This document shows, piece by piece, positions 8,071-36,914 of a stretch of 36,978 bases of DNA (its first letter is position 1; every line of letters starts with the position of its first letter). Source of the stretch: an uncultured bacterium (lineage in GTDB: Bacteria > Bacillota > Clostridia > Lachnospirales > Lachnospiraceae). Below the pieces are notes generated by a model. That model had not been told where the DNA came from. It saw only the letters and a list, made by a program, of their open reading frames with translations, and did no database searches. Where the stretch lies: contig CANRWP010000031.1 of assembly GCA_947643595.1 (NCBI GenBank), forward strand, positions 1-36,978, given 5' to 3'. A program made the translations under genes and the position numbers.

Positions 8071-8892
8071 ATGAAAGATTTCATTATATTTACAGACGGA
8101 GATGTGGATGTCCCCAAGCCATATGACGCAGATGTCATTATACTGCCGCAGTACTACTACTTTGAATCCGACACCATATACGGCGACGAACAAGTCCTGC
8201 CCAGGGAAATGTTTTTTGACAGGCTCAGCAGCCAGAGAGCCTACACCGCCGGGGTTAATCCCGATCTGGTCTATCGGCGTTTTGAGGAGATTTTAAAGAC
8301 CGGCAGCGATATTCTGTGCATCACGGTATCCTCCGGGATCAGCGGCTCCCATAATACTATCTGTGCCGCCGCCAGGGAACTTAAGACGCGCTACCCCCAC
8401 TCCTTTGTCAAAGTCATCGATTCTCTGAGCGCAACGCTGGGAGCCGGTTTCCTCTGTGTCGATGCGGTCGAGATGAAAAGACAGGGAAAGTCCCTGGACG
8501 AGACTGCCGCCGAGATCGAGAAACGAGTAAAACTTTTGGACATTTTCTTTATCGTAGATGATTTCAAATATCTGATACAGGGCGGCCGTGTATCGCCCGC
8601 CATAGGAAAAATAGGCGACATCCTGGATATCAAGCCTATTCTGACGATCCGGGACGGGCATATCGAGCTGTACAAAAAGGCCAGGGGATTAAACACTGCC
8701 CTGCGCAATATCCAGACCATCGCAGAGAGCAGAAAGGCAGCCAGACTTGGCAATATCTATGTGGGAAACCAGGAAATGTTCGAGAAATGCTGTTCCCATG
8801 TGCCCGGAGACTATGATGTGCGTCTGAATCTCATCGTATCCTCCCATGTGGGACCCAATACCACCGGCGTTGCCATCGAATGGGAGGTATAG
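8071..8892 (+). CDS. DegV family fatty-acid-binding protein
   Basis: A 273-residue DegV-fold protein. Family marks are an N-terminal strand with IIFTDGDVDVP, the SSQRAYTAGVNPD stretch, ITVSSGISGSHNT (glycine/serine loop that binds the fatty acyl carboxylate), VIDSLSATLGAGF and YLIQGGRVS. DegV/FakB proteins bind one fatty acid and present it to the kinase FakA for phosphorylation and use in phospholipid synthesis; no FakA is in this window. The start at 8071 is preferred over 8011: AAAGGA precedes it, the extended -10 lies between the two, and homologues begin with this first strand. It is divergent from the phosphoribosyltransferase-like gene and followed by a terminator shared with pnp. Confidence 0.9.
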   Translation: MKDFIIFTDGDVDVPKPYDADVIILPQYYYFESDTIYGDEQVLPREMFFDRLSSQRAYTAGVNPDLVYRRFEEILKTGSDILCITVSSGISGSHNTICAAARELKTRYPHSFVKVIDSLSATLGAGFLCVDAVEMKRQGKSLDETAAEIEKRVKLLDIFFIVDDFKYLIQGGRVSPAIGKIGDILDIKPILTIRDGHIELYKKARGLNTALRNIQTIAESRKAARLGNIYVGNQEMFEKCCSHVPGDYDVRLNLIVSSHVGPNTTGVAIEWEV

Positions 8893-8901
8893 TATACAAA
8901 A

Positions 8902-8945
8902 CAGGCGGCTATCCATCGTCGGATAACCGCCTGACTTTTTATTTT
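8902..8945. terminator. Bidirectional terminator between degV-like gene and pnp
   Basis: CAGGCGG-C-TATCC pairs with GGATA-A-CCGCCTG (8902-8933) with one mismatch and a 6-nt loop, followed on the plus strand by ACTTTTTTATTTTT. On the minus strand TTTTG follows. The converging pnp gene ends inside its T-tract. Confidence 0.9.
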
Positions 8946-11029
8946 TGTGCCACATCCTTCATGGAGAAGCTGATTCTGCCCATTTTATCCTTGCCCAGGC
9001 AGACAACCGTCACCACATCGCCCAGCGTCAGCACATCTTCCACACGGTTGATTCTCTCCTTCGCGATCTTGGAGATATGAACCATGCCTTCCTTGCCGGG
9101 CGCAAACTCGATGAATGCGCCAAATTCCTTGATGCTCACCACCTTACCCTGGAACACCTGTCCTGCCTCAAAGTCCGTCACAATGGTCTTGATCATCTCC
9201 ACAGCCTTGTCCATCATCTCCGCATCCGTACCGCACACGGATACCTGACCATCATCTGTGATATCGATCTTCACGCCGGTGCGGGCAATGATCTCGTTGA
9301 TCGTCTTGCCGCGCTGTCCGACCACATCGCCGATCTTCTCCGGATCGATCTGCAGGGAGATGATCTTCGGTGCGTAAGGACCAACCTCCGATCTCGGAGC
9401 GGAGATCGCGGGCTTCATACAGGTGTCCATAATAAACATCCTCGCCTCGCGACAGTGCGCGATAGCGCCCTCCACGATCGGTCTCGTCAGGCCGTGGATC
9501 TTGATATCCATCTGGATCGCCGTGATGCCTTCCGTTGTACCCGTCACCTTAAAGTCCATATCGCCGAAGAAATCTTCCAGACCCTGAATATCGGTCAGCA
9601 GTACAAAATCATCATCCGTATCGCCGGTCACCAGACCGCAGGAGATACCCGCCACCATCTTCTTTATCGGCACGCCCGCCGCCATCAGAGACATGCAGGA
9701 CGCACAGGTGGAAGCCATGGAGGTGGAACCGTTGGACTCAAATGTCTCCGATACAGTGCGGATCGTGTAAGGGAACTCGTCCACAGACGGCAGTACCGGC
9801 AGAAGCGCTCTTTCAGCCAGCGCGCCGTGTCCGATCTCTCTTCTTCCCGGTCCTCTGCTTACCTTCGTCTCGCCCACGGAGTAGGACGGGAAATTGTAAT
9901 GATGCATATATCTCTTCTCTGTAATGTTTACATCCAGCCCGTCCACTTTCTGTGCCTCGGATAAAGGCGCCAGAGTGGTCACGTTGCAGATCTGTGTCTG
10001 TCCGCGGGTAAACATCGCGGAGCCGTGCACTCTCGGGATAATATCCACCTCCGCCGCCAGCGGACGGATCTGATTTAACTCACGGCCGTCCGGACGCTTG
10101 TGATCTTTCAATATCATCTTGCGGACGGTCTTTTTCTGATACTGATAAACCGCCTCACCGAGGACAGCAAGCCACTCTTCATTTTCGGCGAAAGCCTCCT
10201 CCAGCCTTGCCGTGATATTCCTGATATTCTCCTCTCGCACCTGCTTCTCATCCGTGAAGACAGCCGTCTCCATCTCTTCAGGAGGCACGATCTTTTTGAT
10301 CTCCTCAAACATCTCCTCGGGGATCGCACAGCTCACGTACTCGTGTTTCGGTTTACCGCACTCTGCCACGATCTGATTGATAAAGGCAATGATTGTCTGG
10401 TTGATCTCGTGCGCTTTATAGATCGCGGAGAGCATGGTTTCTTCCGGAACCTCATTGGCGCCGGCCTCGATCATGATCACCTTCTGCGCCGTGGATGCAA
10501 CGGTCAACCTCATATCGCCCTTGTCCCACTGCTCCTGACCGGGATTGACGATCAGTTCCCCATCCGCCATGCCGATCTGCGTCATCGCGCAGGGACCCGC
10601 AAACGGAATATCGGAGATACAGGTCGCGATGGATGTCCCCAACATCGCCACCAGCTCCGGACGACACGTGGGATCCACGGACATCACCATATTGTTTAAT
10701 GTCACATCATTTCTGTAGTCCTTCGGGAACAGAGGGCGCATCGGTCTGTCGATCACACGACTCGTCAGGATCGCGTTCTCGGAAGGCTTGCCCTCCCTCT
10801 TGTTGAATCCGCCGGGAATCTTTCCCACGGAATAGAATTTCTCCTCATATTCCACACTGCACGGGAAAAAGTCAATGCCGTCCCTGGGTTTCTCGGAAGC
10901 CGTGGCCGTGGAGAGTACGGTCGTCTCCCCATACTGCATAAACGCGCAGCCGTTCGCCTGTTTGCCGACTCTGCCGATGTCTACCTTCAGGGTACGTCCG
11001 GCAAGTTCCATTGTGTAAGTTTTGTACAT
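8939..11029 (-). CDS. pnp: Polyribonucleotide nucleotidyltransferase (PNPase)
   Basis: The 696-residue protein has the full PNPase architecture: two RNase PH-type domains joined by a helical domain, then KH and S1 RNA-binding domains. Recognisable stretches are TYTMELAGRTLKVDIGRVG at the start, GIDFFPCSVEYEEKFYSVGK and the RVIDRPMRPLFP motif. The second PH domain has FTRGQTQ and GRREIGHGALAERAL, the KH domain IGDVVGQRGKTINEI, and the S1 domain EFGAFIEFAPGKEGMVHIS. It degrades RNA 3' to 5' by phosphorolysis and trims tails within the RNA-degrading machinery. I chose the ATG at 11027-11029 (AAAGGAG upstream, homologues begin here); the frame upstream is leader. It lies downstream of rpsO, the usual arrangement, with a large hairpin between. 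Confidence 0.98.
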   Translation of the reverse strand: MYKTYTMELAGRTLKVDIGRVGKQANGCAFMQYGETTVLSTATASEKPRDGIDFFPCSVEYEEKFYSVGKIPGGFNKREGKPSENAILTSRVIDRPMRPLFPKDYRNDVTLNNMVMSVDPTCRPELVAMLGTSIATCISDIPFAGPCAMTQIGMADGELIVNPGQEQWDKGDMRLTVASTAQKVIMIEAGANEVPEETMLSAIYKAHEINQTIIAFINQIVAECGKPKHEYVSCAIPEEMFEEIKKIVPPEEMETAVFTDEKQVREENIRNITARLEEAFAENEEWLAVLGEAVYQYQKKTVRKMILKDHKRPDGRELNQIRPLAAEVDIIPRVHGSAMFTRGQTQICNVTTLAPLSEAQKVDGLDVNITEKRYMHHYNFPSYSVGETKVSRGPGRREIGHGALAERALLPVLPSVDEFPYTIRTVSETFESNGSTSMASTCASCMSLMAAGVPIKKMVAGISCGLVTGDTDDDFVLLTDIQGLEDFFGDMDFKVTGTTEGITAIQMDIKIHGLTRPIVEGAIAHCREARMFIMDTCMKPAISAPRSEVGPYAPKIISLQIDPEKIGDVVGQRGKTINEIIARTGVKIDITDDGQVSVCGTDAEMMDKAVEMIKTIVTDFEAGQVFQGKVVSIKEFGAFIEFAPGKEGMVHISKIAKERINRVEDVLTLGDVVTVVCLGKDKMGRISFSMKDVAQK

Positions 11030-24147: not shown

Positions 24148-27108
24148 TTATTTCTGTTTTTCATGCAAAAACTGCCGCAGCACATTCATCAGCAGCTCGA
24201 TATCCAACGGCTTCGCGATATGGGCGTTCATGCCGCTCTTTAACGCCGCTTCCCGGTCCTCCTCCATGGCGTTCGCCGTCATGGCGATAATGGGAAGATT
24301 CTTCACATCCCGACGGCGCATCGCCCGGATCTCCTTCGTCGCCTCATAGCCGTTCATAACCGGCATCTGCACATCCATCAGCACCGCGTCGTAATAGCCT
24401 TCCTCCGATCTCTCTATCATAGCTACCGCATCCGTTCCGTCGGGCGCCGATTCCACCACAAATCCTACTTCCTCGAGAATGACTCCGGCGATCTCCCGGT
24501 TCAACTCGTTATCTTCCACCAGAAGAACCCTTCTGCCGTTAAAATCAGCTTTCGTCCACGCCGCTCTCCCGTCCTGCGGATCCGCTTCGCCGATACGGTT
24601 CGCCGCCAGAAGCGCCGCCTTTAAGTCGGACATGAAAAGCGGTTTCGCGCAGAATGCCGTGATGCCCGCCGCCTTCGCCTCCTCCTCTATATCGGCCCAG
24701 TCGTAGGCAGTCAGGATAATGATGGGCGCGTCCTCCCCCACCACGCTGCGGATCCTTCTAGCAGTCTCGATCCCACTGGTCTCCGGCATCTGCCAGTCGA
24801 TAATATAGGTGTGGTAGGGATCCCCCTCCTCGTAGGCGGATTTGGCACGGTACGCCGCCTCCCTGCCGGACGTGGTCCACTCCGCGCGCAGACCGATACT
24901 CTTCAACATCTTGCTGACGCTGTCGCAGACATTGAAGTCGTCGTCCACCACCAGGGAGCGTAGTCCGCTCAGTTCCTTAATCTGTTCGGCATTCTTTTCC
25001 ACATCCTGAAGCTGCAGAGAAAGTTTCACCGTGAAAGTGCTCCCTTTCCCCACTTCGCTCTCCACCGTGATCTCCCCGCCCATCATATCGACGATATTCT
25101 TCGTGATGGCCATGCCGAGCCCAGCTCCCTGTATGCCGCTTCTCGTGGTCGTCGTCTCCCGCTCAAAGGGCTCAAAGATATGTTTCACAAACTCTTTGGA
25201 CATACCGATGCCATTGTCCCTGACAACGAAAATATAGTCCCCCCACCCGTGTCTGTAGGTGGTATCCTGCGTGATGCGGAAGCTCACCGTCCCGCCTGCC
25301 GGCGTGTATTTGACAGCATTCCCCATCAGATTGATAAATATCTGGTTCAGCTTCAAGGGGTCCGCGATCACGTCCTCATTGACCACCCCGAAGGTATCGA
25401 TAAACATCTCCAGCTGCTTGGATTTTACCTGCGGCTGGATAATATTTACCAGATTGTGCATCAGCTCGGGGACATTACACTCCTGATTATGGATCTGCAG
25501 CTTTCCGCTCTCAATGCGGCTCATATCCAGAATATCGTTGATCAGCCCCAGCAGATGATTGCTGGACGAAAGAATCTTCTGCAGACAGTCCCTAACCTGA
25601 TCCGTTCGGTCCATATGACTTGCCGCGATCGTCGCAAAGCCGATGATGGCATTCATGGGCGTGCGGATATCGTGGCTCATGTTGGACAGGAAAGTGGTCT
25701 TTGCCTGATTGGCGTGCTGCGCCTGCATCAGGGCATCCTGCAGCGTCTGTGTCTGCTCCTGCTGCTTTTTGATCTGGTCCGTGACATTCTGGCGGACGTA
25801 CAGCACCCTGGCGGGAACTTTGTCCTTCCGCTCCAGACATACCACGATCAGATTTTCCCAGTCTTCCTTCTCCTGGCGGGAGACATGACATACATGGACG
25901 AGAAAATCCTCCGTCTTCAAATTTTCCCTGAGGGTATCGATCCGGCTGAAATGGCGGAACGCCTTTTTTTCTTCCTCGCCCAAAATATCCGCCTCATGGA
26001 ACTTTATCATCTCGCTGTAGACGCCTTCCATCGGAATATTGGCATTCAGCGGTCTCACCCCCGCCAGATAGGAATAGCGGTCGTTCTCCAGATCCACCAC
26101 CAGATAGCGGGAGGAGAAGAGGATGTTCACCCCCCGGAGCACGTCGCTGATAAACTTATTCTCCGCCTCCAGCTCCTTGCGCCGCCTCCCCGCGCGCACC
26201 ACCAGAAAAGCGATATATATCCCAAACAGAATAAGCAGGCAGATCTCCAGCATGACGCCCGCCATGTTCGCCCTTTTCACCATCCCCTGCGTAATATTCT
26301 TCGGAAACGCCTGGACGAGGACATACTCGTGGCCCGGCAGATCCACCACACAGATGTTGTCTGTCTTACATCCTTCCTCACACAGAAGAGCCACCTCACC
26401 GCCCTCCCGGAACACGGTCCGCGCCGTCCCGGCAGTCTCCTCGTCGATGACCCCCTCCTGCGTCAGGGAATCCAACAGGTCGCCCTCATAGACTTTGTCG
26501 CTCGAACTGGCGATCACACTGCCCTCCTGGGTGCAGAGAAATACATCGGCCTTCTCGCCGAAATAACTGGCGGTGAGCATGTCCCGCAGATATTCCTCCG
26601 CAAAATATAATCCCAGAAATACTCCCGCCGTTTCTCCGTCCCTGTATACGGGGGCGTAAAACACCATCATGGGTTTCCCGGTGATCCTGGATTTCTCCAC
26701 GGTGACCAGCCCGCTCTCCCCCCGCATACCGTTTACAAAATACTCTCTGTCGGAACTGTCGTTGGTCTCCCCGCCGGAGGCCAGATTGATGCCCTCCGCA
26801 TTGGTGAAGCGTATGGCGTCAAAGCTCGTATTCTCCTCCATCTCCTTCAGGATCTGTGTGTCGATCTCCATATCCTCCGCCCCTATGACAACCAGGTAGG
26901 CGCTGTTTTGGATGCGCTGCAGCGCATTGTTAAATTCGCTCTCGATACGCTCGGCCGTCTGCAGGGCGCAGTCCTCCGCATAGACCCTGTTCTGTTCCTG
27001 AATGCGGGCTCTGTTCTGCGTTGTGTAGATAAAAAATAACACAGGTATCGCCATCAGAAAAAATAATGCGTATATGATCGGCTGAAATGTTCTGTTTTCC
27101 TGTTTCAT
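24148..27108 (-). CDS. Hybrid sensor histidine kinase with two receiver domains
   Basis: A 986-residue membrane kinase. TM1 is at about 9-29, an extracellular dCache-like sensor at about 40-275 and TM2 at 283-305. A PAS-like region (about 320-445) is followed by a HisKA domain with His479 in NMSHDIRTPMNAIIGF and an ATPase domain (Asn597 in NAVKYTPAGG, DNGIG, GAGLGMAI). Two receivers follow: the first with Asp771 in YIIDWQMPETSG, the second with Asp912 in LMDVQMPVMNGYEA. No HPt or DNA-binding output domain is present, so phosphate must pass to a separate protein. Its own weak promoter (27170-27199) follows the pseudo-ATPase gene. The start has no strong ribosome site and sits next to a GGCGC/GCGCC hairpin (27116-27134), so translation may be low or controlled. 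Confidence 0.93.
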   Translation of the reverse strand: MKQENRTFQPIIYALFFLMAIPVLFFIYTTQNRARIQEQNRVYAEDCALQTAERIESEFNNALQRIQNSAYLVVIGAEDMEIDTQILKEMEENTSFDAIRFTNAEGINLASGGETNDSSDREYFVNGMRGESGLVTVEKSRITGKPMMVFYAPVYRDGETAGVFLGLYFAEEYLRDMLTASYFGEKADVFLCTQEGSVIASSSDKVYEGDLLDSLTQEGVIDEETAGTARTVFREGGEVALLCEEGCKTDNICVVDLPGHEYVLVQAFPKNITQGMVKRANMAGVMLEICLLILFGIYIAFLVVRAGRRRKELEAENKFISDVLRGVNILFSSRYLVVDLENDRYSYLAGVRPLNANIPMEGVYSEMIKFHEADILGEEEKKAFRHFSRIDTLRENLKTEDFLVHVCHVSRQEKEDWENLIVVCLERKDKVPARVLYVRQNVTDQIKKQQEQTQTLQDALMQAQHANQAKTTFLSNMSHDIRTPMNAIIGFATIAASHMDRTDQVRDCLQKILSSSNHLLGLINDILDMSRIESGKLQIHNQECNVPELMHNLVNIIQPQVKSKQLEMFIDTFGVVNEDVIADPLKLNQIFINLMGNAVKYTPAGGTVSFRITQDTTYRHGWGDYIFVVRDNGIGMSKEFVKHIFEPFERETTTTRSGIQGAGLGMAITKNIVDMMGGEITVESEVGKGSTFTVKLSLQLQDVEKNAEQIKELSGLRSLVVDDDFNVCDSVSKMLKSIGLRAEWTTSGREAAYRAKSAYEEGDPYHTYIIDWQMPETSGIETARRIRSVVGEDAPIIILTAYDWADIEEEAKAAGITAFCAKPLFMSDLKAALLAANRIGEADPQDGRAAWTKADFNGRRVLLVEDNELNREIAGVILEEVGFVVESAPDGTDAVAMIERSEEGYYDAVLMDVQMPVMNGYEATKEIRAMRRRDVKNLPIIAMTANAMEEDREAALKSGMNAHIAKPLDIELLMNVLRQFLHEKQK

Positions 27109-27224: not shown

Positions 27225-28679
27225 TCACACCATTTTTTTCATAAACGAGTACGACATTTTATGCTCCTCAAACTCCCCCTCTTCCTCCGCGATCCCCTGC
27301 GCGCTCAGTCTCAGGGTCCGCTCTGCCACCAGCCAGGTATCCAGGGGGTTCACCGACAGCAGCACCAGCGCGATCTCCCTGTCCAGGAGTTGTTCCAGCA
27401 TCTCCCAGATAAACCGTCTGTGCGGCATGTCCGCCCCCATAAAGGGCTGGATCAGAAACACCACCCTTGGTTTCTGCAGCATGATCCTCATGTAGACGAG
27501 CTGATATTTTCGCCGCTCGGACAATGTTTCCACCGGGCTCTCAAACACCTCGTCCCCCAGGATCGGTGCGTATTCCCGTCGGATGCTGGCCCGGATCTTC
27601 CTGCCGCTCCAGATATCCGGCATCCGTCTTGCCAGTCCCATACACAGGTTGTCCATATAACTCATCTCCGGAAAGATCATCGTGGAGGTGGGCTGCGCCG
27701 AGACCACCGCAATTTCCCTGTCCATGGATATCTTTCTCCTTCTGCCGTCCATCGTGATCCGGCTCTCCTCCCCCGTCAGAAACAGGACGCAGGACCGCAG
27801 GATCTGGTCATCCTGAGCCCGCAGCGTCAGACACTCCCCCTCATTTACGGAAAAGGCAAACCGTATTTCCCTCCTGTCAGCAAACACAGCCTCCATCCGG
27901 ATCTCTCTCCCGGCCCTCGGCAGATGCCCGTTCTCCGGGTAACCCCAGACGCTCCGGTCATATCCCTCCAGACACTCCTGAAGGTACTTCCGATTCATAT
28001 CCGCCTCCTGCACGATCTTCTGCAGCCGCCCGTTGCACAGAAAACCCGCCCTGTCGCACAGAGGCACTATCTCCTCAAAATGGGAGCTGATATAGAGAAA
28101 AGAGAAACCACGGTCCGTGTAATGGCGCAGAATCTCCGAGAGCTTCCGCATCTCCTTTCCACTGACAAAAATGCTGATCTCATCCAGCACGATCAGGTGG
28201 TATCCCATGACCACCGCCTTCAACAGTTCCACCACCACCCGCTCAAAGGCCGAGAGGTTCTCCACCCGGACATCCGCCGAAATATCCATGCCGATCTCGT
28301 CCATGAAAGGCTGAAGCTGTTTCTTTAAAACGGATGTCTGTAAGATGTGCTGACGGAAGTTCTGTCGAAGCACAAAGATATTGTCCGCCACCGTCATCCC
28401 GTTCACCAGACGGCTCTGGGCCTGTATCACGCTCACCCGATTGCTCTTCTTTAACGCCGACCGCCAGGAGTTGACAAGTTCTTCGCCATAATAAATATAC
28501 CCGTCGTAGAGGGGGAGGTTATTCTGCAGGAGTTTCAGAATCGCCTGCTTCCCGTGGACGTTGACCGGTATCAGCCCCATGATCTCACCCGCGTAGATCT
28601 GCATATTGAAATTTTCCAGTTTTTTTATACCCTGTTCCGCGTAGGTCACGCGCTCCATGCGGAAGATCTCCTGTCTCAT
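27225..28679 (-). CDS. Degenerate RbsA-like double ABC protein (pseudo-ATPase)
   Basis: The 484-residue protein aligns along its whole length with the two-domain ATPases of CUT2 sugar importers (such as the intact one at 34339-35874), but the nucleotide sites are damaged. First half: the P-loop reads PVNVHGKQA (38-46) instead of GENGAGKST, the signature LSAFE (142-146); Walker B LIVLDE (162-167) and His200 are kept. Second half: no P-loop at 281-296, signature LSERR (386-390) for LSGGN, and Walker B VVFLIQP for VVIFDEP, losing both acidic residues. It has no membrane segments. ATP hydrolysis is unlikely, though weak binding in half one is possible. Its ATG overlaps the stop of the YesM-like kinase gene by 4 nt, so the two are made together. 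I infer a regulatory or scaffolding role for that kinase. Confidence 0.8.
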   Translation of the reverse strand: MRQEIFRMERVTYAEQGIKKLENFNMQIYAGEIMGLIPVNVHGKQAILKLLQNNLPLYDGYIYYGEELVNSWRSALKKSNRVSVIQAQSRLVNGMTVADNIFVLRQNFRQHILQTSVLKKQLQPFMDEIGMDISADVRVENLSAFERVVVELLKAVVMGYHLIVLDEISIFVSGKEMRKLSEILRHYTDRGFSFLYISSHFEEIVPLCDRAGFLCNGRLQKIVQEADMNRKYLQECLEGYDRSVWGYPENGHLPRAGREIRMEAVFADRREIRFAFSVNEGECLTLRAQDDQILRSCVLFLTGEESRITMDGRRRKISMDREIAVVSAQPTSTMIFPEMSYMDNLCMGLARRMPDIWSGRKIRASIRREYAPILGDEVFESPVETLSERRKYQLVYMRIMLQKPRVVFLIQPFMGADMPHRRFIWEMLEQLLDREIALVLLSVNPLDTWLVAERTLRLSAQGIAEEEGEFEEHKMSYSFMKKMV

Positions 28680-29716
28680 ACCTTCTCCATCTCCCTGTCC
28701 TGCGTCGTCACAATGGGCAGCGTCACTTCTACATCTGTCCCCTTGCCGCGGATGGAGTAGACGTGCATACCGTACTGCTCCCCGAACAGCAGATGGATCC
28801 GGTTGTTCACATTGACTAACGCGATGCCGCCCTTCTTCTCCTCGTTTTCGGTCAGAGCCTTCCCTCCTCTGCCCAGCTGTCTGTTCAGCTTCGCCAGAGT
28901 CTGCTCATCCATCCCCACGCCATCGTCCGAGATCCTGATGATCAGCCGCCTTTCCGTCTGCTCAAACCGGATCGTCAGATTTCCCGTCCCGATCTTTAAC
29001 TCCGTGCCGTGGATAATGCTGTTCTCGAGGATCGGCTGCAGGGTCAGCTTGGGAATCCTGCAGTTCATAATGCTCTCCCTGTTTTCCTCATCGCAGAGGA
29101 CATGGAGCCGCAGCCGGTTTCCGAAGCGGTATTTCTGGATCAGGAAATAGGTTCCGCAGTTGTCCAACTCCTCCTCCACCGACACCAGATTTTCCACCTT
29201 CGTGATCGTATAGCGGAAGAACTTTGCCAGCGCCTCGGTCATATCCGCGATATTATCCATCCCTGCGATCAGCGCCTCCCCCCGGATACTCTCCAACGTA
29301 TTGTAGAGGAAATGAGGGTTGATCTGGTTCTGCAGCGCCAGATACTGCGCCTGCCGTTTGTTCAGATCCATCATCTCCGGGGATTTCAGTACCTGTTCCA
29401 TCCGCTCGATCTCCTCCTCCATGGTGGGCGTCAGCAGTGCCTGGTCAAAGAGGCTTTTGTCCGGCAGAATGTAACCGTCCAGTATACGCCGTATCATCAT
29501 CTGTATGCGCCGGTAAGGGCGCAGAACAAACACCAAAAAGGATACCACGAAGCCAGCCGTAAACACCAAAAACAGCATCACCTGCCAAAAGGGCGCTTCC
29601 TCTCTGAAAAACAGGATGCACTGTATCAGTATCTGCAGCGCCAGAAAGCCAAACAGAACCGACGCCAGAAGAAACATCCTGTTTGATATGTATTTCCAGC
29701 GGTTATTTTCTCTCAT
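28676..29716 (-). CDS. Short YesM/LytS-type sensor histidine kinase
   Basis: A 346-residue kinase of the YesM (His_kinase, PF06580) type. Two membrane segments (about 14-36 and 44-65) are separated by only about 7 residues, so there is practically no extracellular sensor. A short linker with PYRRIQMMIRRILDGY follows. The kinase core has the family phosphorylation motif QNQINPHFLYNTLESIRGEA (His135), Asn232 in LQPILENSIIHG and DDGVGMD (264-270). Most YesM proteins carry a large extracellular domain, so the signal here probably comes from a partner protein. The next gene overlaps by 4 nt and the response regulator lies 9 nt upstream, making a tight RR-HK-pseudo-ATPase unit. Confidence 0.92.
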   Translation of the reverse strand: MRENNRWKYISNRMFLLASVLFGFLALQILIQCILFFREEAPFWQVMLFLVFTAGFVVSFLVFVLRPYRRIQMMIRRILDGYILPDKSLFDQALLTPTMEEEIERMEQVLKSPEMMDLNKRQAQYLALQNQINPHFLYNTLESIRGEALIAGMDNIADMTEALAKFFRYTITKVENLVSVEEELDNCGTYFLIQKYRFGNRLRLHVLCDEENRESIMNCRIPKLTLQPILENSIIHGTELKIGTGNLTIRFEQTERRLIIRISDDGVGMDEQTLAKLNRQLGRGGKALTENEEKKGGIALVNVNNRIHLLFGEQYGMHVYSIRGKGTDVEVTLPIVTTQDREMEKV

Positions 29717-29725
29717 ATGTACTCC

Positions 29726-31321
29726 CTACCCGTAAAGTTTCCGGTACGCTGCCGGCTTCAGTCCCGTCGCTTTCTCAAAATTGTGGATAAAATGCTTCAG
29801 ATCGTTGTAACCCACCCTGCGGCAGACCTCCGAGACGGAAAAGTTGCTCTCCCGAAGCAGTATCTTTGCCTGTTCCATGCGCACGCCGGTCAGATACTTC
29901 GCAAACCCTTCCCCCTCCTCCTTCTTGAACAGGGCGCTGAAATAGGTGCTGGAAAGCCCCACCGCACTGCTGACTTCCTCCTGGGTGATCGGCTCGCTAA
30001 AATGATTCTGGATATACTGTTTCGCCTGACGGACGGGACGCACCATATTCCCCTCATGCTGCTGCACCAACTCTTCGATATACTTTTTCTGCAGTTCCTC
30101 CAGCACCTGAAACAGAGCTTCCCGGGATCCGCACTGCCTGCAACTTTCCGAAAAGTGCTGCAGCTTCTCCCGGCGTTCCCTCGACTCCACCTGGCTCAAA
30201 AACAGAGCGCCGCAGGAATTTACCAGTTCCAGTATCTCATATCCCCGCACATCCCTCACCTGCGCCGCTTCCGCACGAATCTCGTCGAGTGCTTTCCGCG
30301 CCTCCTCCTCGCTCATGATCTCGATGGCGTGGGTGATACCCCTCAGGTACTTCTCCAGAAGACTCTTCTCGTGGAGGGAGGAGGTTCCCTCCGGCATATA
30401 ATCCAACAGGCGCCCCGTCCCCTTGACCAGGCGCTCCTCGATGATCAGGGCCGCCTCCCGCAGGGACCTCCCGATCTCGGAAGGCTCCGTCACGATACGG
30501 CCCACCGCCATGGAAAAAAATATCTCCCCGTAGAGATTTTTCCCGCTCTCCAGCTGGTTCAGGCAGTCTTTCAGGATGCGCCGGATCTCTTCCTGCCGGT
30601 CCTTCCCGTAGTTTAAAATGCCGATGTAGCCTCCCCAGTCCTGCCCTTTGCAGAACATATCAAAACATTTTCCGGCGAGACAACTCTCGATGAGCCTTCC
30701 TGAGCGTTCTATTATAATGTGTTTCCCTTCCTCACCGGGTTCCTCCCCCGGACAGTCTATTTTCAGCCAGATCGCCTGAAAACAACCGGGCTGCACATCC
30801 AGATAGTATTCCTCCCTCAGACGCTCCAATGAAAGAGGTTCTTCCTTCTGTTCCCGGAGACGCTCCAGCAGAAGATCCCTGAGTCTTCGCACATCGTTCT
30901 TGCTCTTCCTCTCCAGCTGCTGCTTATCCTCCCGTTCCCTGATGCGACAATCGATCTTTGCTCGCAGACGTTCTAACGTCATCGTCAGTTCCGCCTTATT
31001 GATGGGCTTTAAGAGATACTCTCCCACGCCGAATTTTATCGCGCTTTTCGCGTAATCAAAATGGGCGTAGCCGCTGATTATGATGATCTCCAGCTCCGGC
31101 CGCTCTTTTTTTACTCTCTCAATCAGTTCCAGACCGCTGCATCCCGGCATCCGGATATCCGTGATCAGTATATCCGGGCACAACTGTCCCACAAGCTCTG
31201 CGGCTTCCAGGCCGTTATGGGCGATGGCAGCCACCTCCATATCAAGAGCTCTCCAGTCCACCAATGCCTCGATCAGACGGCAGATCCTCTCCTCATCATC
31301 CGCAATTATCACTTTTTGCAT
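29726..31321 (-). CDS. YesN-type response regulator with AraC DNA-binding domain
   Basis: A 531-residue regulator. The receiver domain (1-120) has Asp8/Asp9, phospho-acceptor Asp55 in ILITDIRMPGCSG, Ser83 in IISGYAHFDYAKSA and Lys105 in EYLLKPINK. The FDYAKSAIKFGVGEYLLKP stretch is typical of YesN regulators. A coiled/helical middle part (about 120-420) is followed by an AraC-type double helix-turn-helix (about 430-531, EEVSSAVGLSSTYFSALFKK and VSEVCRRVGYNDLKHFIHNF). It is phosphorylated by the partner kinase encoded 9 nt downstream and should activate nearby transport genes. The start has GGGGAAGGGAAG upstream. It has its own promoter (31399-31427). Confidence 0.95.
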   Translation of the reverse strand: MQKVIIADDEERICRLIEALVDWRALDMEVAAIAHNGLEAAELVGQLCPDILITDIRMPGCSGLELIERVKKERPELEIIIISGYAHFDYAKSAIKFGVGEYLLKPINKAELTMTLERLRAKIDCRIREREDKQQLERKSKNDVRRLRDLLLERLREQKEEPLSLERLREEYYLDVQPGCFQAIWLKIDCPGEEPGEEGKHIIIERSGRLIESCLAGKCFDMFCKGQDWGGYIGILNYGKDRQEEIRRILKDCLNQLESGKNLYGEIFFSMAVGRIVTEPSEIGRSLREAALIIEERLVKGTGRLLDYMPEGTSSLHEKSLLEKYLRGITHAIEIMSEEEARKALDEIRAEAAQVRDVRGYEILELVNSCGALFLSQVESRERREKLQHFSESCRQCGSREALFQVLEELQKKYIEELVQQHEGNMVRPVRQAKQYIQNHFSEPITQEEVSSAVGLSSTYFSALFKKEEGEGFAKYLTGVRMEQAKILLRESNFSVSEVCRRVGYNDLKHFIHNFEKATGLKPAAYRKLYG

Positions 31322-31364
31322 ATCTTCCCTTCCCCGCAGTATACTCCAGAATACAATGAAGAAA

Positions 31365-31392
31365 TAGCCGCACGCTCTTCCGCCTGCGGCTA
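31365..31392 (-). promoter_or_regulatory. Hairpin at the 5' end of the yesN-type transcript
   Basis: TAGCCGCA and TGCGGCTA (8 bp) enclose a 12-nt loop; GAAG/CTTC just outside may extend the stem. The predicted start of transcription falls at the hairpin's first bases (about 31392), so it may be a 5' stabiliser. It could also weakly terminate transcripts coming from the binding-protein gene, but no strong T-run follows. Confidence 0.55.
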
Positions 31393-31398
31393 CTTCTC

Positions 31399-31427
31399 AT
31401 TATATATTATCAGAGACTCTATGTCAC
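31399..31427 (-). promoter_or_regulatory. Promoter of the response-regulator operon
   Basis: GTGACA (31422-31427), 17 nt, TATAAT (31399-31404) on the minus strand, between the binding-protein stop and the regulator start. Confidence 0.65.
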
Positions 31428-31440
31428 TAAATGAACCATG

Positions 31441-33273
31441 TTACTTTGTCAGCACGGAAACTCCCGTATCTGTCACCGCACCTCCGAGGGACTCCCCTTC
31501 GAGTGCCTTCACACAGGCTTCCACACCCATGGAACCCATCACATCGGGATTCTGCGCCATCGTGCAGAGCAGATGTCCGTCGCCGATCAGGTTCATGATC
31601 GCATCGGATTTATCAAAGCCAACACCCACGATATCGGAGTTGCCGGATGCCTTGATGGCATTGCCTGTTCCTGTTGTGCTTCCCTCGTTACAGCCGAAGA
31701 TACCTACTACGTTCTGAGTGATATAGTTCTCAGCGATGGTCTGGGACTTCGCCGCGTCACCTTCGCCGTACTGTGTCTCAAGGAGATTGAAGTCTGTTCC
31801 CTCAAACGCTTTCCGAAACCCTTCCTCACGGTCCACTGTGGACTGTGTCGCAGCGTTTACATTTACGATACCGATATCGCCGCTTGTCACGCCTGCCGCC
31901 TCAAGAGCCTTGATCATCTCTTCGCCAGCCGTGGTACCTGCCGCCACGTTATCGGTGGAGAAAGTCGCTTCCGCGTCCACGTTTGCGGGGGAGTCCACAT
32001 ACACAACCCTGATGCCTGCCGCAATCGCTTCCTGCAGTGCGGAAGAAATCGCGTCGGGGCCGTTTGCTGCCACGATGATCGCTTCATAACCGCCCGCCAC
32101 CGCGTTATTCACACATTCGATCTGCTGTGCGTCATCCTTTGTGTTGGGGGACATAAATGTCACTTCCACACCCAGTTCGCCCGCCTTCGCCTGAGCGCCT
32201 TCATTTAAAGTTACCCAGTGCTGGTCGATGGAGTCCATCGTAATCAGAGCGATCTTCCATGCTTTGCTCGCCTTTACCGCATCGCCGGATGCCTCAGATG
32301 CCGCGCCGCCCAGTGCTGCCACGTCGATCACGGAAACGCCTGTATCCGTCACTTTTCCGCCCAGGTCTTCGCCGCCGATAGCCGCAACTGCCGCTTTCAC
32401 GCCTTCGTAACCCATCACGTCCGGATTCTGTGCCATCGTGCAGAGCAGATAGCCGTCTGTGATCAGCCCCTGGATCGCATCGGACTTATCGAAACCTACG
32501 CCCACGATATCGGAGCTGCCGGATGCCTTGATCGCGTTGCCTGTTCCTGTTGTGGAACCCTCGTTACATCCGAAGATACCTACTACCTTCTGTGTGATGT
32601 AGTTCTCGGCGATGGTCTGGGATTTCGCCGCGTCGCCTTCGCCGTACTGTGTCTCAAGCAGGTTGAAGTCTGTTCCTTCAAACGCTTTTCTGAAACCATT
32701 TTCTCTGTCTACCGTAGACTGTGTCGCAGCGTTTACGTTGACAATACCGATGTCGCCGCTTGTGATGCCTTTTGCATCGAGGGCTTTGATCATCTCTTCA
32801 CCCGCTGTGGTTCCTGCCGCCACGTTATCGGTGGAGAAAGTCGCTTCCGCATCTACGTTTGCGGGAGAGTCCACATACACAACCTTGATGCCTGCCGCAA
32901 TCGCTTCCTTCAATGCGGAAGAGATCGCGTCAGGACCGTTTGCCGCTACGATGATAGCCGCATAGCCGCCTGCCACCGCGTTGTTCACACATTCGATCTG
33001 CTGTGCGTCGTCCTTTGTGTTAGGTGACATAAATGTCACTTCCACGCCCAGCTCGCCTGCCGCCTTCTGTGCGCCTTCGTTCAGGCTGATCCAGTGCTGG
33101 TCGATGGAGTCCATCGTGATCAGTGCGATCTTTGCTCCATCCGCAGAAGCAGCTGCCTCTGTTGACTCGCCTTCCGCTGCCGCCGGTGCATCCGCACTCT
33201 GACTGCCGCAGCCCGTAAGCGCCGCTGCCAGCATAGTCGCGCCGCAGAGTAAACTTAACAGTTTCTTTTTCAT
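31441..33273 (-). CDS. Sugar-binding lipoprotein with two tandem periplasmic-binding domains
   Basis: A 610-residue substrate-binding protein of the RbsB/type 1 periplasmic-binding family, about twice the usual length (about 300-350). It has a signal peptide with lipobox AALTGC (Cys22), an Ala/Glu/Ser-rich linker, domain 1 (48-315), a 24-residue linker (316-339) and domain 2 (340-607). Both domains start KIALITMDSIDQHW and end GGxVTDTGVSV; they differ at 26 of 268 positions by my alignment. Core binding motifs (NGPDAISSAL, YVDSPANVDAEATFSTDN, GCNEGSTTGTGNAIKASG, VGVGFDKSDAI) are kept in both, so both may bind ligand. It delivers substrate to the RbsC-like permease encoded 56 nt upstream. The start has AGGAGG. 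The sugar is unknown. Confidence 0.93.
   Translation of the reverse strand: MKKKLLSLLCGATMLAAALTGCGSQSADAPAAAEGESTEAAASADGAKIALITMDSIDQHWISLNEGAQKAAGELGVEVTFMSPNTKDDAQQIECVNNAVAGGYAAIIVAANGPDAISSALKEAIAAGIKVVYVDSPANVDAEATFSTDNVAAGTTAGEEMIKALDAKGITSGDIGIVNVNAATQSTVDRENGFRKAFEGTDFNLLETQYGEGDAAKSQTIAENYITQKVVGIFGCNEGSTTGTGNAIKASGSSDIVGVGFDKSDAIQGLITDGYLLCTMAQNPDVMGYEGVKAAVAAIGGEDLGGKVTDTGVSVIDVAALGGAASEASGDAVKASKAWKIALITMDSIDQHWVTLNEGAQAKAGELGVEVTFMSPNTKDDAQQIECVNNAVAGGYEAIIVAANGPDAISSALQEAIAAGIRVVYVDSPANVDAEATFSTDNVAAGTTAGEEMIKALEAAGVTSGDIGIVNVNAATQSTVDREEGFRKAFEGTDFNLLETQYGEGDAAKSQTIAENYITQNVVGIFGCNEGSTTGTGNAIKASGNSDIVGVGFDKSDAIMNLIGDGHLLCTMAQNPDVMGSMGVEACVKALEGESLGGAVTDTGVSVLTK
31453..32256 (-). 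repeat. Second copy of the tandem duplication in the binding-protein gene
   Basis: This 804-nt stretch codes for domain 2 and is shifted by exactly 876 nt from the first copy (32329-33132). Long runs are identical, with scattered silent changes and more differences towards the 3' end. The register is in frame. Confidence 0.9.
32329..33132 (-). repeat. First copy of the tandem duplication in the binding-protein gene
   Basis: Codes for domain 1 (residues 48-315). Amino-acid changes relative to copy 2 cluster in the last 50 residues (13 of 26), while residues 131-165 and 193-228 of this domain are identical in both copies. The pattern suggests gene conversion or selection on the domain body. 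Confidence 0.9.
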
Positions 33274-33329
33274 GTTCTTATTCCTCCTGTTTTTTATATC
33301 CTAAACGCACAGGCTTTTCGCCCCTGCGG

Positions 33330-34346
33330 TTAGTTTCCTTTTTTCTTCTTGAACTGTCCGCCCCTTACGACGACGTCCAGAAGTACCGCCGCCACCACGA
33401 TCACGCCGATGACTACCCGCTGGATGCCGACCTGGGCGCCGATCATGTTCAGCCCGTTCTCCAGTGTCTGCCATACCGCCGCACCCGCGAAGGTTCCGAG
33501 CAGAAGCCCTGTACCGCCGAGGGGGGATACGCCGCCGATTACGCCCGCCGCAACGCCGTACATCTCGTACATATTGCCGGCTTCCATGTTGCCCATGCCC
33601 GCCTGTGCGCAGAGGATCAGTCCCACCACACAGGAACAGACCGCGCTGACCAGATAAGCCTTTGTCGTAGTTGCCACCACGTTCACACCGGAGAGCTTCG
33701 CCGCTTCGATGTTGGAGCCGATGGCGTATATATGTCTTCCCGTTCTTGTCTTGGAGAGCAGGAAGAAGAAAATGATGAAGAAGATCAGTGCGATCCAGAA
33801 TGTGTTGTAGACGCCCAGTGTCGTCCCATAGTAGAAAATATTCTGGAAGCTGTCCCCCGCCTCCTTGCCGATACCGGTGGCGATGGCGTCCGTGTTGCGG
33901 TTGCTGTTTACCATGTACGCCACGCCCCTTGTGATAAACATGGTGCCCAGGGTCGCGATGAAGGGAGGCAGTTTGAATTTGCCCACCAGAAATCCGTTGA
34001 CCACGCCGCATACCAGACAGCAGGCGAGGGCTACCACAATCGCCAGGATCGGATTCACGCCCCTGCTCATCAGAGTCGCCGCCACCATGGCGCTCATGCC
34101 TACCATGGAGCCGATGGACAGATCGATGTTGCCGGTGATCAGTATGTAACTCTGCGCGATACCGATCAAAAGATATTTTGACATGGAGCGCAGCAGGTTC
34201 ATGATATTCTGTCCGGAGAAGACCGCCGGATTGATCAGCCCGAACGCCACATAGATCACGATCAGTCCGATAAACGCCGTGATCGCGGCGCCCATGCCCC
34301 GGATCGCCATAATTTTTCTAAGAGAACTTTGCTTTTCATTACTCAT
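33330..34346 (-). CDS. CUT2-type sugar ABC permease (RbsC/MglC family)
   Basis: A 338-residue permease with about eight to ten hydrophobic segments and the CUT2 permease signatures: ITGNIDLSIGSMVGMSAMVAA, VNGFLVGKFKLPPFIATLGT, AIGSNIEAAKLSGVNV and GGVSPLGGTGLLLGTFAGA. Unlike CUT1 systems a homodimer forms the channel. I chose the ATG at 34344-34346 (GGGAGG 11 nt upstream), overlapping the ATPase gene end by 8 nt; a GTG seven codons earlier is less likely. The binding-protein gene follows 56 nt later. The gene order ATPase-permease-binding protein is common for these importers. Confidence 0.94.
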   Translation of the reverse strand: MSNEKQSSLRKIMAIRGMGAAITAFIGLIVIYVAFGLINPAVFSGQNIMNLLRSMSKYLLIGIAQSYILITGNIDLSIGSMVGMSAMVAATLMSRGVNPILAIVVALACCLVCGVVNGFLVGKFKLPPFIATLGTMFITRGVAYMVNSNRNTDAIATGIGKEAGDSFQNIFYYGTTLGVYNTFWIALIFFIIFFFLLSKTRTGRHIYAIGSNIEAAKLSGVNVVATTTKAYLVSAVCSCVVGLILCAQAGMGNMEAGNMYEMYGVAAGVIGGVSPLGGTGLLLGTFAGAAVWQTLENGLNMIGAQVGIQRVVIGVIVVAAVLLDVVVRGGQFKKKKGN

Positions 34347-35874
34347 GCTCTTCGTTTCCTCCCTCACTCTTTCCTATCTTTTTATCTTCAAAGGTGGTAG
34401 CTAACGTCAGAATCTCATTCTGCGTCGTCTCTCTCGCCATCACTTCGCCTGTGATGCGTCCGTCGCACATGACGATGATGCGGTCCGCGATACCCATCAC
34501 CTCGGGCATTTCCGAGGAGACAAAGACAACCGCGATGCCCTGCTTTTTCAGATCGTTCATCAGGTGGTAGATCTCCACCTTCGCCCCCACATCGATGCCC
34601 CTTGTGGGCTCATCGAAGATCACCACTCTCGAATCCCTTGCCAGCCATTTCCCGACCACGACCTTCTGCTGATTGCCGCCGGAGAGATTGCCCGAATCGA
34701 TCTCCACATTGGGCGTCTTGATCCTCAAGTCCTCCACAGCCTTTTCGCAGAGCTTCTCCTCCGTTTTGCTGCTCACCACGCCCAGCTTGTTGCAGACGAT
34801 ATCCAGATTCGGCAGCGCCAGATTGTGGCGGATGGAAAGCTTTGTGCAGAGCCCGTCCTTCTTCCGGTCCTCCGGCGCCAGCACCACGCCGCTCTTTATG
34901 GCGTCCATGGGGCAGGTGATCTTCACTTCCCTGCCGTCCACATAGATCTCGCCGCTCTCCTTCGGATCCACGCCGAAGATCGCCCTTGTGGTCTCCGTGC
35001 GCCCCGCGCCCATCAGCCCGGCAAAGCCCACGATCTCACCCTCGTAGGCGGAGAAATTGATATCTCTCACCATCCGCCCGGCATTTAAATTTCTCACCTC
35101 AAAGATCTTCTTTCCCTTTTCGCACTCCACTCTGGGGAACTTCTCCTTGATCTCACGCCCCACCATGTGGGCGATGATCTGATCCATCGTGGTATCCTTA
35201 AAGTTCATCGTCGTGATATACTGACCGTCCCGCATGATTGTCACACGATCCACGATATGCTGCAGTTCCTCTAAACGATGGGATATGTAAACGATGCCTT
35301 TTCCCTCACTCTTAAGCTTCCTGATGATGCGGAACAGATCCTCGATCTCCCGCGCCGTCAGGGAGGAGGTCGGTTCGTCCATGATCAGGATCTTCGCATG
35401 GATGGAAAGGGCTTTCGCGATCTCTACCATCTGCTGTTTGGAGACCGGCAGCTCGCCCACGATCTGATTCGGACTGATATCGATCTTCAAATCATCCAGT
35501 ATTTCCTTCGCTTCCTTTTCCATGGAGCTGTTGTCGAGTGCTACTTTCCCGCGCTTTTCTCTGCCGAGGAACATGTTCTCCGTGACAGTCAGGTGTTTAC
35601 ACATGTTCAGCTCCTGATGGATGATCGCAACGCCCGCTTCCTGCGCCTGCTTCGGCGTCAGATCGCCGTACTCTTTTCCGAAGATCTCAAGGGAACCTTC
35701 ATCTCTCGTGTAGACGCCGCTCAGCACCTTCATGAGCGTTGACTTGCCCGCGCCGTTCTCCCCGAGGAGCGCAAGGACTTCGCCGGAGCGCAGTTCAAAA
35801 TCCACGCCGTCGAGCGCCTTCACGCCGGGGAAAGACTTGCAGATATTCTTCATTGAGACAATTATCTCACCCAT
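34339..35874 (-). CDS. CUT2-type sugar ABC transporter ATPase (RbsA/MglA family)
   Basis: A 511-residue double ATPase. The first half is canonical: Walker A GENGAGKST (38-46), Q-loop HQELN, signature LPVSKQQMVEIAKAL, Walker B ILIMDEPTSSL and switch YISHRLEEL. The second half has the divergent P-loop GLMGAGRTE usual in RbsA, signature LSGGNQQKVVVGKWL and VVIFDEPTRGID. All catalytic motifs of this family are present, in contrast to the pseudo-ATPase at 27225-28679. It powers uptake by the RbsC-like permease. It is the first gene of the transporter operon; the ATG has AAGGAAGG upstream and a promoter lies at 35912-35939. Confidence 0.95.
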   Translation of the reverse strand: MGEIIVSMKNICKSFPGVKALDGVDFELRSGEVLALLGENGAGKSTLMKVLSGVYTRDEGSLEIFGKEYGDLTPKQAQEAGVAIIHQELNMCKHLTVTENMFLGREKRGKVALDNSSMEKEAKEILDDLKIDISPNQIVGELPVSKQQMVEIAKALSIHAKILIMDEPTSSLTAREIEDLFRIIRKLKSEGKGIVYISHRLEELQHIVDRVTIMRDGQYITTMNFKDTTMDQIIAHMVGREIKEKFPRVECEKGKKIFEVRNLNAGRMVRDINFSAYEGEIVGFAGLMGAGRTETTRAIFGVDPKESGEIYVDGREVKITCPMDAIKSGVVLAPEDRKKDGLCTKLSIRHNLALPNLDIVCNKLGVVSSKTEEKLCEKAVEDLRIKTPNVEIDSGNLSGGNQQKVVVGKWLARDSRVVIFDEPTRGIDVGAKVEIYHLMNDLKKQGIAVVFVSSEMPEVMGIADRIIVMCDGRITGEVMARETTQNEILTLATTFEDKKIGKSEGGNEEHE

Positions 35875-35939: not shown

Positions 35940-35986
35940 AAAAGGGTGGAAGTTTTTGGATTTGATGGGGTTTTTTATGCAGTTTG

Positions 35987-36125: not shown

Positions 36126-36914
36126 TCAATCGTCAAACGCAATGCTGTCGATCATGTCCTGGAACAGACGAACCACCGACTCTTCCACGTACTCCTCATA
36201 GATAATAAAATTGAAGACCACGCACTCCTCGCCGCGTTCAACCGACAGGTAGCGCTGATAGTAGAAATCACCATCGTCGGTCTGCACCATGGAAGCTCCG
36301 TCCACCGCCGGATTGCCCTGGATCGATATCTCCTCCACGACATAGCCCTGCTCTTCCATGTTTCCTTTCAGCCTCTGCTGGGTATCGCCCCCCTCGGCAT
36401 CGTAGAGCGTGATATAGAGCGCCGCCATATCCCACGCGTTTGCCCCGTCATAGCCGGAATATACCTCCAGACTGCTGCCGTCCTCGCTGAGAGCGATATT
36501 CCACACATACGGGCAGGAGAATGTCATGCCCAGCTCCTCCACATAGCGCTCCGTCATCACCGGCACCGGGATGGCCGGATCCTGTTTCATCGCCGCGTCC
36601 AATTCTTCCTGCGTGATAACGATAGACGCCTCGTCACCCGTGTCCGCCAGGATCTTTTCCGCCACGACTCTTGTGGCAGGCGCCAGCACCGAAAAATGGT
36701 CGGCGTCCTCCACCACATAGCAGTGCAGATTCTCGTTCTCAGAGACCTCCTCCATCCGCTCCAGATTCTCCGAATTGCCATCCCTTCCCTCGATCAAAAA
36801 TGTGGGACTTTTGATATCATCCAGCCAGTAGATCGGGGAACGCATGATGTACTCATCCTGATTACTCTTATCAAAAGTAAACTGACTGTTGTTATGATGC
36901 CCAATAATGTTGAG
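36126..36914 (-). pseudogene. Alpha/beta hydrolase, 5'-truncated
   Basis: The open frame codes for the C-terminal part of a prolyl-oligopeptidase-like alpha/beta hydrolase. MRSPIYWLDDIKSPTFLIEG is the late strand with the acid region and VEDADHFSVLAP carries the catalytic histidine. A second domain of about 150 residues (from IVITQEELDAAMKQ) follows and is not one I recognise. The nucleophile elbow (G-x-S-x-G) and the rest of the N-terminal half are missing. An ATG at 36843-36845 could start a 239-residue product, but the frame stays open upstream (reading SNQDEYI and NNSQFTF) to a stop at 36915-36917 inside an inverted repeat. There is no ribosome site at that ATG. I infer the gene was cut by an insertion or deletion at the repeat. 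Confidence 0.65.

Follow-up and report, generated by a model that had tools for sequence, protein, structure and literature searches.

A regulator, a short kinase and a dead ATPase paralogue recur beside CUT2 sugar importers of Clostridia and may allow the importer to act as a sensor

Genes of the locus and the degenerate ATPase

The stretch of DNA analyzed here (the window) covers 36,978 nucleotides of contig CANRWP010000031.1 from an uncultured member of the Lachnospiraceae (assembly GCA_947643595.1), and six of its genes, all on the minus strand, encode a sugar importer, a two-component pair and an RbsA-like protein whose ATP sites are degenerate. The importer is of the CUT2 type, with all three parts present: an RbsA-type tandem ATPase with intact motifs (34339-35874; ABC_tran match of 171 bits), an RbsC-like permease with a BPD_transp_2 domain (33330-34346; its start, an ATG near the ATPase stop, was picked by eye), and a sugar-binding protein with two Peripla_BP_4 domains in tandem (31441-33273; lipoprotein-like start by eye). 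These are followed by a response regulator with a receiver and an AraC-type DNA-binding domain (Response_reg and HTH_18; 29726-31321) and a short histidine kinase of 346 amino acids (aa) with His_kinase (PF06580) and HATPase_c domains (28676-29716), which by their domains make up a YesM/YesN (LytS-type) pair. The last gene (27225-28679), which shares 4 bases with the kinase gene, encodes the RbsA-like protein, with two nucleotide-binding domains in tandem and ATP sites degenerate in both halves; it is the proposed coupling protein and is named pATP here, and regulator, kinase and pATP together are called the module. A direct repeat (AAAA..CCCC twice, about 20 bp apart; 35940-35979, minus strand), the proposed operator, lies 66 bases before the ATPase gene. 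A preliminary description of this DNA had listed the importer, a doubled binding protein, an AraC-type regulator, a nearly sensorless kinase and a dead ATPase on one strand, and that gene content holds; its figure of seven kilobases has to be corrected to 8.65 kb.

Hydropathy predicts two membrane helices in the window kinase with a short loop between them, and the protein has no extracellular sensor domain, the large form of which is usual for YesM/YesN kinases. Kinase-family matches were found at 15 places in the window genome, and short complete frames occurred only at the two that adjoin a pATP (349 and 361 aa), while 12 others measured 508-673 aa and one was cut by a contig end. The kinase is thus almost without an extracellular sensor, as first described.

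The window pATP gave a single ABC_tran match of 58 bits. An alignment of pATPs with the partner catalytic ATPases from 44 modules showed that both halves had largely lost the residues of Walker A, signature, Walker B and switch, and a complete ATP-site set was kept by none (0/44): 16 of the 44 had the first-half Walker A lysine, 7 had the Walker B aspartate and 1 had the switch histidine. Each of these three residues was present in 44/44 partner ATPases, which varied solely in the first-half signature and one second-half glycine (43/44). Judged by its motifs, pATP is dead as an ATPase, in agreement with the preliminary description. The pATPs have conserved positions of their own (e.g. Glu4, Tyr63, Phe336, Tyr396 and Pro404), and the Asn after the Q loop is found in 44/44 in both halves, in pATPs and catalytic ATPases alike. 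The region after the Q loop of ABC importer ATPases faces the coupling helices of the permease; in pATP, these stretches retain 0.79 and 0.86 of the conservation seen in the ATPase, and the two Walker A motifs 0.52 and 0.50. A structure was predicted for pATP with a mean pLDDT of 72, three of the 11 alignment rows being catalytic ATPases, and a structure search with this model returned ABC-domain matches, the best including tandem ABC-domain proteins. The model is that of two consecutive nucleotide-binding-domain folds resembling RbsA. For the window catalytic ATPase, no relative of solved structure was found at E 1e-40.

Recurrence and shared history of the module

In a first-round profile search, pATPs scored at least 536 bits and other proteins at most 237 bits, and pATP matches were obtained in 33 of 397 genomes of the family. 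Above the score gap (at least 440 bits), matches were found in 7 of 295 genomes sampled from the order, 13 of 391 from the class and 7 of 398 from the phylum, counts in which the window's own genome is included each time and some genomes are shared between samples; the remaining rows of the order and class searches scored like catalytic ATPases and were left uncounted. The module is wider than first noted and occurs in other families and classes of the phylum too. The strict cut undercounts, since diverged pATPs overlap catalytic ATPases in score, and such pATPs were recovered by the kinase search given below.

A total of 71 pATP loci were annotated (numbered with L), not all of them independent, as eight lie in the window's genus and some genomes contributed more than one. 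A kinase adjoined pATP in 69 and a regulator in 68, and the fetched stretch contained a catalytic CUT2 ATPase in 60, a permease in 60 and a recognised binding protein in 52. Missing parts mostly fell at contig ends, as for the kinase or regulator at L117 and L146, leaving one true orphan, L214. The combination of importer, regulator, short kinase and pATP set out in the preliminary description thus recurs across genomes, with the exception of the doubled binding protein, which is discussed below. Full-length sensor domains on close kinase orthologues, which that description had expected to speak against its proposal, did not appear, the longest kinase frame in the 69 loci being 409 aa. The catalytic ATPase lay downstream of pATP in 36 loci, upstream in 19 and on the other strand in 5, and because its position varies in this way, the linkage between importer and module outlives rearrangement.

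The reverse search, with a kinase profile on the same family set and at most five candidates scored per genome, gave 106 places in 63 of 397 genomes, including a few ordinary full-length kinases near the threshold. Known pATP loci accounted for 38 of these places, and 47 of the 68 others were fetched, selected by score, missing N-terminus or long frame. A pATP-type open reading frame (ORF) was present in the cluster at all 40 loci from L265 to L304, as a fragment in L265; the 39 pATPs checked there (two of them partial frames) kept 0-5 of 11 catalytic residues, and the full-length RbsA-type ATPases of the same loci kept 11 of 11 in 28/28 cases. L307 supplied a further pATP with 4 of 11 residues, and L308, L309 and L310 proved to be ordinary full-length kinases (601, 624 and 601 aa) with no pATP in the stretch. 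These results demonstrate that regulator, kinase and pATP form a real, recurring and conserved module, and given that the arrangement recurs in many genomes, it is not a product of chance.

Two phylogenetic trees (35 pATP and 44 catalytic rows in one; 42 and 21 rows plus two intermediates in the other), both quick and with long branches, separated the pATPs from the catalytic ATPases by a well supported branch. An origin of pATP by recent duplication of the local ATPase was rejected on this ground. The end branches of the window pATP and its ATPase measure 0.17 and 0.033, so that pATP evolves several times faster; its frame keeps a length of roughly 440-560 aa in different families and classes of the phylum, and in the near-twin strain Bacterium 1XD8-76 it is 99% identical to that of the window. 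Independent histories of the two gene sets, the other outcome that the preliminary description had held against itself, were not what the trees gave: among 53 complete loci, patristic distances, in which shared species descent is included, correlated at 0.89 for pATP-kinase, 0.89 for pATP-regulator, 0.79 for pATP-ATPase, 0.78 for pATP-permease and 0.61 for kinase-permease, and 0/2000 permutations reached the value for pATP-ATPase, pATP-permease, pATP-kinase or kinase-permease. With kinase and regulator controlled for, the pATP-permease correlation was 0.52-0.62; with pATP controlled for, the kinase-permease correlation was -0.09 to -0.30. Such partial correlations are what a go-between role of pATP would give, but only with near and far pairs pooled.

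Among five genomes of the genus, sequence conservation in front of the importer ATPase gene extends over about 100 bases and is lost farther upstream. A 40-base profile of the direct repeat was learned from 30 loci of the family and tested on 13 held-out loci, of which 12 belong to other families. When both strands of the entire locus were scanned, the top-scoring site lay 7-116 bases before the importer ATPase, and on its strand, in 9 of the 13, and 12 of the 13 scored above all 70 control upstream regions, which were taken from CUT2 ATPases outside modules. Shuffles reached the observed score in 0/200 for seven of the held-out loci and in 1, 2, 5, 9, 9 and 53 of 200 for the rest. With training loci included, 42 of 57 module importers exceeded the best control, and the repeat precedes the importer alike whether the regulator is upstream or downstream. 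On the 40 kinase-search loci, 20 scored above the control maximum and 5 above 10, in a scan that took the best of several gene starts and is less strict than the held-out test. A 21-base core, allowing up to three mismatches, matched the window genome once, at this promoter, and the reversed control also gave one match. We propose that the repeat is a putative operator for the response regulator of the module. Further high-scoring copies were seen at two loci: one (22.6) before a chemoreceptor-like gene (by eye) at L118 (13235-15047, minus), where chemotaxis may be part of the regulon, and one (23.8) downstream of the module at L077 (11819-11858, plus).

The two binding-protein domains of the window are 86% identical to each other. 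A tandem binding protein was present in 13 of the 52 loci with a recognised binding protein, some others, such as L220, being cut by contig ends; it is therefore rejected as a general part of the mechanism, and the preliminary description went too far in counting it as part of the composition. An assembly artefact was rejected as well, since the tandem form occurs in strain 1XD8-76 (L068) and 11 further loci. Within one protein the domains are 84-95% identical in the window and in L072, L077, L115, L116, L120, L126, L208, L210 and L219, and like domains of different genera are often less alike (54-87% in the pairs printed), a pattern that suggests repeated duplication or homogenisation. In or beside the module operons, a ROK kinase gene was seen at L146 and, together with one for type I phosphomannose isomerase, at L122; L077 and L123 have a gene for D-lyxose isomerase there, and L134 one for an N-acylglucosamine 2-epimerase family protein. 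Because of these sugar-enzyme genes, one might guess at a mannose, lyxose or fructose-like substrate for this branch; an esterase-like protein (L075) and a xylose-isomerase-like barrel protein (L137) have no bearing on it.

A proposed sensing route and its alternatives

We consider it likely that pATP couples the permease to the kinase and that a non-transporting form of the importer is the receptor that induces the importer. In this mechanism, pATP, which keeps the importer-ATPase fold and some permease-facing positions and is devoid of the residues for ATP hydrolysis, would sit on the permease dimer, replacing or exchanging with the real ATPase and giving a non-transporting form. A loaded binding protein would dock outside, the resulting change in the permease would pass via pATP to the sensorless kinase, and the kinase would phosphorylate the regulator, which would then bind the direct repeat and induce the importer. 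We infer the docking of pATP on both permease and kinase, the direction of the signal and the binding of the repeat by this regulator; the evidence supports the mechanism up to the kinase-pATP link and is indirect for the link between pATP and permease.

The kinase-pATP link is seen most directly in L306, from a genome of two contigs, where one frame of 616 aa joins a short kinase to a single degenerate ABC domain that begins at residue 400. In a scan of 2236 ORFs, its C-terminus scored 105 bits (E 1.5e-29) with the pATP profile and 35 bits with the catalytic ATPase profile, and hhalign gave the ABC part a probability of 99.5 against pATPs and 0.5 against kinases; Pfam did not report this domain. 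The CUT2 cluster promoter at L306 bears the common repeat, with a score of 20.5 that is the top of the locus. Gene fusion is a common sign of two proteins working together, and this one, a single case, suggests that kinase and pATP do so.

Other loci point toward the permease. L287, L289, L292, L297 and L303 contain a binding protein, a permease, regulator, kinase and pATP with no catalytic CUT2 ATPase in the fetched stretch (at L289 the contig stops 1.6 kb away, and at L292 and L297 the stretch stops about 2 kb past pATP). Permease and pATP likewise occur with no catalytic CUT2 ATPase in the fetched stretch at L082, L299 and L301, and together with a binding protein at L139. At L273, L277 (where no binding protein was recognised) and L282, a second permease gene overlaps pATP beside importer genes that include a catalytic ATPase; the overlap in these three and in L082 amounts to 4-22 bases. 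Several of these receptor-like loci have kinases with no predicted membrane helix, a condition found at L082, L275, L276, L289, L292, L297, L298, L299 and L301, and such a kinase cannot read the outside by itself. Where a permease adjoins the module, 7 of 10 loci had a kinase with 0-1 helices, versus 14 of 101 others (Fisher p 0.0003), a comparison based on hydropathy calls alone, with kinship among loci uncorrected and many loci picked for a missing kinase N-terminus. The expectation that helix-less kinases accompany a dedicated permease was borne out only in part, as a permease adjoins the module in 5 of the 11 rows with no helix, the 11 including the contig-end locus L285 and L122. At L122, the kinase frame is interrupted around 8179-9000 by sequencing error or decay, and its regulator and pATP are intact. 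We lean, by a narrow margin over even chances, toward a broader reading in which a receptor class has arisen from ABC sugar importers, with a dead ATPase in place of the motor and the permease and binding protein wired to a histidine kinase, so as to form a receptor that does not transport, some loci being dedicated pure-receptor copies with a soluble kinase and no catalytic ATPase seen, and one a fusion.

In another explanation, pATP would be a cytosolic adaptor on the kinase rather than on the permease, held by the catalytic ATPase, as MalK holds MalT, or sensing an intracellular metabolite or nucleotide, so that the signal would be flux or internal sugar. The fusion of a kinase with a single dead domain speaks for the kinase link only, and since the first ATP site is partly preserved in some pATPs (the Walker A lysine in the 16 noted above), ligand binding is possible. 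The loci that combine permease and pATP with no catalytic CUT2 ATPase in the stretch, the overlapping permease genes and the Asn found in 44/44 after both Q loops speak against this explanation, and we regard it as unlikely while giving it the most weight among the alternatives. Direct sensing of the ligand or binding protein by the kinase through its two membrane helices, with pATP merely a stabiliser or negative regulator, appears improbable. Other intramembrane-sensing kinases are thought to sense via their membrane helices, and two helices are predicted in 86 of 111 kinase rows here. BceS too is a kinase without an extracellular domain (PMC7828314). Against this, kinases of the same family with no predicted helix are still accompanied by pATP, and the helix region is poorly conserved relative to the cytosolic part in the profile consensus. 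That pATP is a decaying ATPase duplicate hitch-hiking in the operon would fit its faster evolution, but the pATPs form one family apart from the catalytic ATPases instead of branching beside local ones, their frame is kept across families and classes, and they have conserved positions of their own and a fusion, which leaves decay with hardly any probability.

Several results weigh against the proposal that pATP couples the permease to the kinase. L209 has no CUT2 genes nearby, and at the orphan L214 (9015-10469) pATP lies between isoleucyl-tRNA-synthetase-like and peptidase-like genes (by eye), with no kinase, regulator or importer in the stretch; moreover, 21 of the 106 kinase places fall outside the set examined. 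The repeat is not universal, since 15 of 57 module importers score no higher than the best control and the paralogue type present in the window's own genome (L080 on contig C44, L081, L128, L130, L131) is without it. As for docking, the remaining helical subdomains of pATP are conserved equally (0.87 and 0.84), so that the region means agree with it only partly, and of the 39 pATPs in the diverged set, 31 have the first Asn and 38 the second. The pATPs of L279, L280 and L284 retain a Walker-A-like GLSG[AS]GKT in the first half, for which reason they may bind ATP. At L275 and L276, the kinases have no helices though importer genes including the ATPase are present; the structure predicted for the kinase, with a pLDDT of 52, was not used. 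In the trees, correlations with the permease at permease distances below 1.2 are 0.69, 0.71 and 0.72 for pATP, kinase and regulator, and 0.30, 0.39 and 0.28 for farther pairs, so that no excess pATP-permease correlation exists within distance classes. Finally, L305 (4116-9139) has a full-length, more distant sensor kinase beside a half-degraded RbsA paralogue with 5 of 11 residues, and L311 (5252-9523) a short kinase beside a nearly intact one with 10 of 11; because of these two loci, a dead ATPase and the loss of the sensor are not strictly required. Both paralogues fall between catalytic ATPases and pATPs in the tree and are possibly evolutionary intermediates.

The idea of the importer as sensor, put forward in the preliminary description, is thus favoured in part: the conserved module, loss of ATP sites, the one fusion, loci with no catalytic CUT2 ATPase in the stretch, helix-less kinases, correlated trees and shared repeat can be read from the genomes and speak for it, L305 and L311 speak against it, and docking is the step that goes beyond them. 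If true, this would be an undescribed bacterial route of nutrient sensing, in which an importer itself reports its sugar; an ABC importer could be converted to a receptor by losing its motor, and a way of sensing would be found for a clostridial family of sensorless YesM-type kinases. A short kinase with a dead RbsA paralogue would then be a simple genome mark predicting self-sensing importers. The loci also offer a natural series for the order in which sensor and ATPase were lost, from the live paralogue of L311 and the half-dead one with a sensor kinase in L305 to dead pATPs and the fused form of L306.

Relation to described systems and neighbouring features

In its ATPase, permease and binding protein, the window importer resembles the CUT2 importers RbsABC and MglBAC, in whose classical operons we know of no pATP or kinase. 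The Pst importer with PhoU and PhoR is a further case of an importer acting as sensor, with a cytosolic adaptor to a kinase; it differs in that PhoU is no relative of an ATPase and the importer ATPase is live. Bce systems are built of a BceB-type exporter permease, a HisKA-type kinase and an OmpR-type regulator, and the window, with its BPD_transp_2 permease, PF06580 kinase and AraC-type regulator, does not belong to them. In the Bce modules (BceAB-BceRS) of Firmicutes, an ABC transporter is needed for sensing by a kinase without an extracellular domain, the output is the transporter promoter, and the transporter is an exporter that pairs two ATP-binding proteins with a permease whose large outside loop serves for antimicrobial peptides (PMC7828314). 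The likeness lies in transporter-coupled sensing with such a kinase; here, in contrast, the transporter is a CUT2 sugar importer, the signalling proteins are of the YesM/YesN type and a dead ATPase paralogue is added.

XylFII-LytS and CuaD-CuaSR are binding-protein three-component systems of the same kind. In the latter, a sugar ABC importer is induced by a kinase and regulator with the help of a binding protein (PMC10384115). The kinase of such systems is contacted on its outside domain by a second binding protein, whereas the kinase here has no such domain and the extra part is an intracellular dead ATPase; with its sensorless kinase and the one binding-protein gene of its cluster, the window is not of this type. 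The three-component layout was seen at L223, where a 586-aa kinase and a further binding protein lie beside a CUT2 cluster with no pATP in the stretch. The present system is thus likened to Bce in mode and to CuaDSR in purpose and is a member of neither. Among the matches listed in a search of the open-licence literature, judged by title and start of abstract, none dealt with a dead CUT2 ATPase beside a kinase, which is weak evidence of absence.

The window genome carries a second regulator-kinase-pATP module on contig C44 (L080, 11286-15418, minus), 23-39% identical to the first and adjoining a CUT2 permease truncated at the contig end. In the window itself, a hybrid kinase with a dCache sensor and receiver domains (24148-27108) adjoins the module, and upstream of the importer lies a 239-aa frame (36126-36845) for which neither Pfam nor NCBIfam gave a match at E 0.001. 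The binding-protein and regulator genes are separated by 119 bases, in which a hairpin (31365-31392) followed by T-rich DNA was noted by eye, possibly an attenuator that keeps importer expression above that of the regulator.

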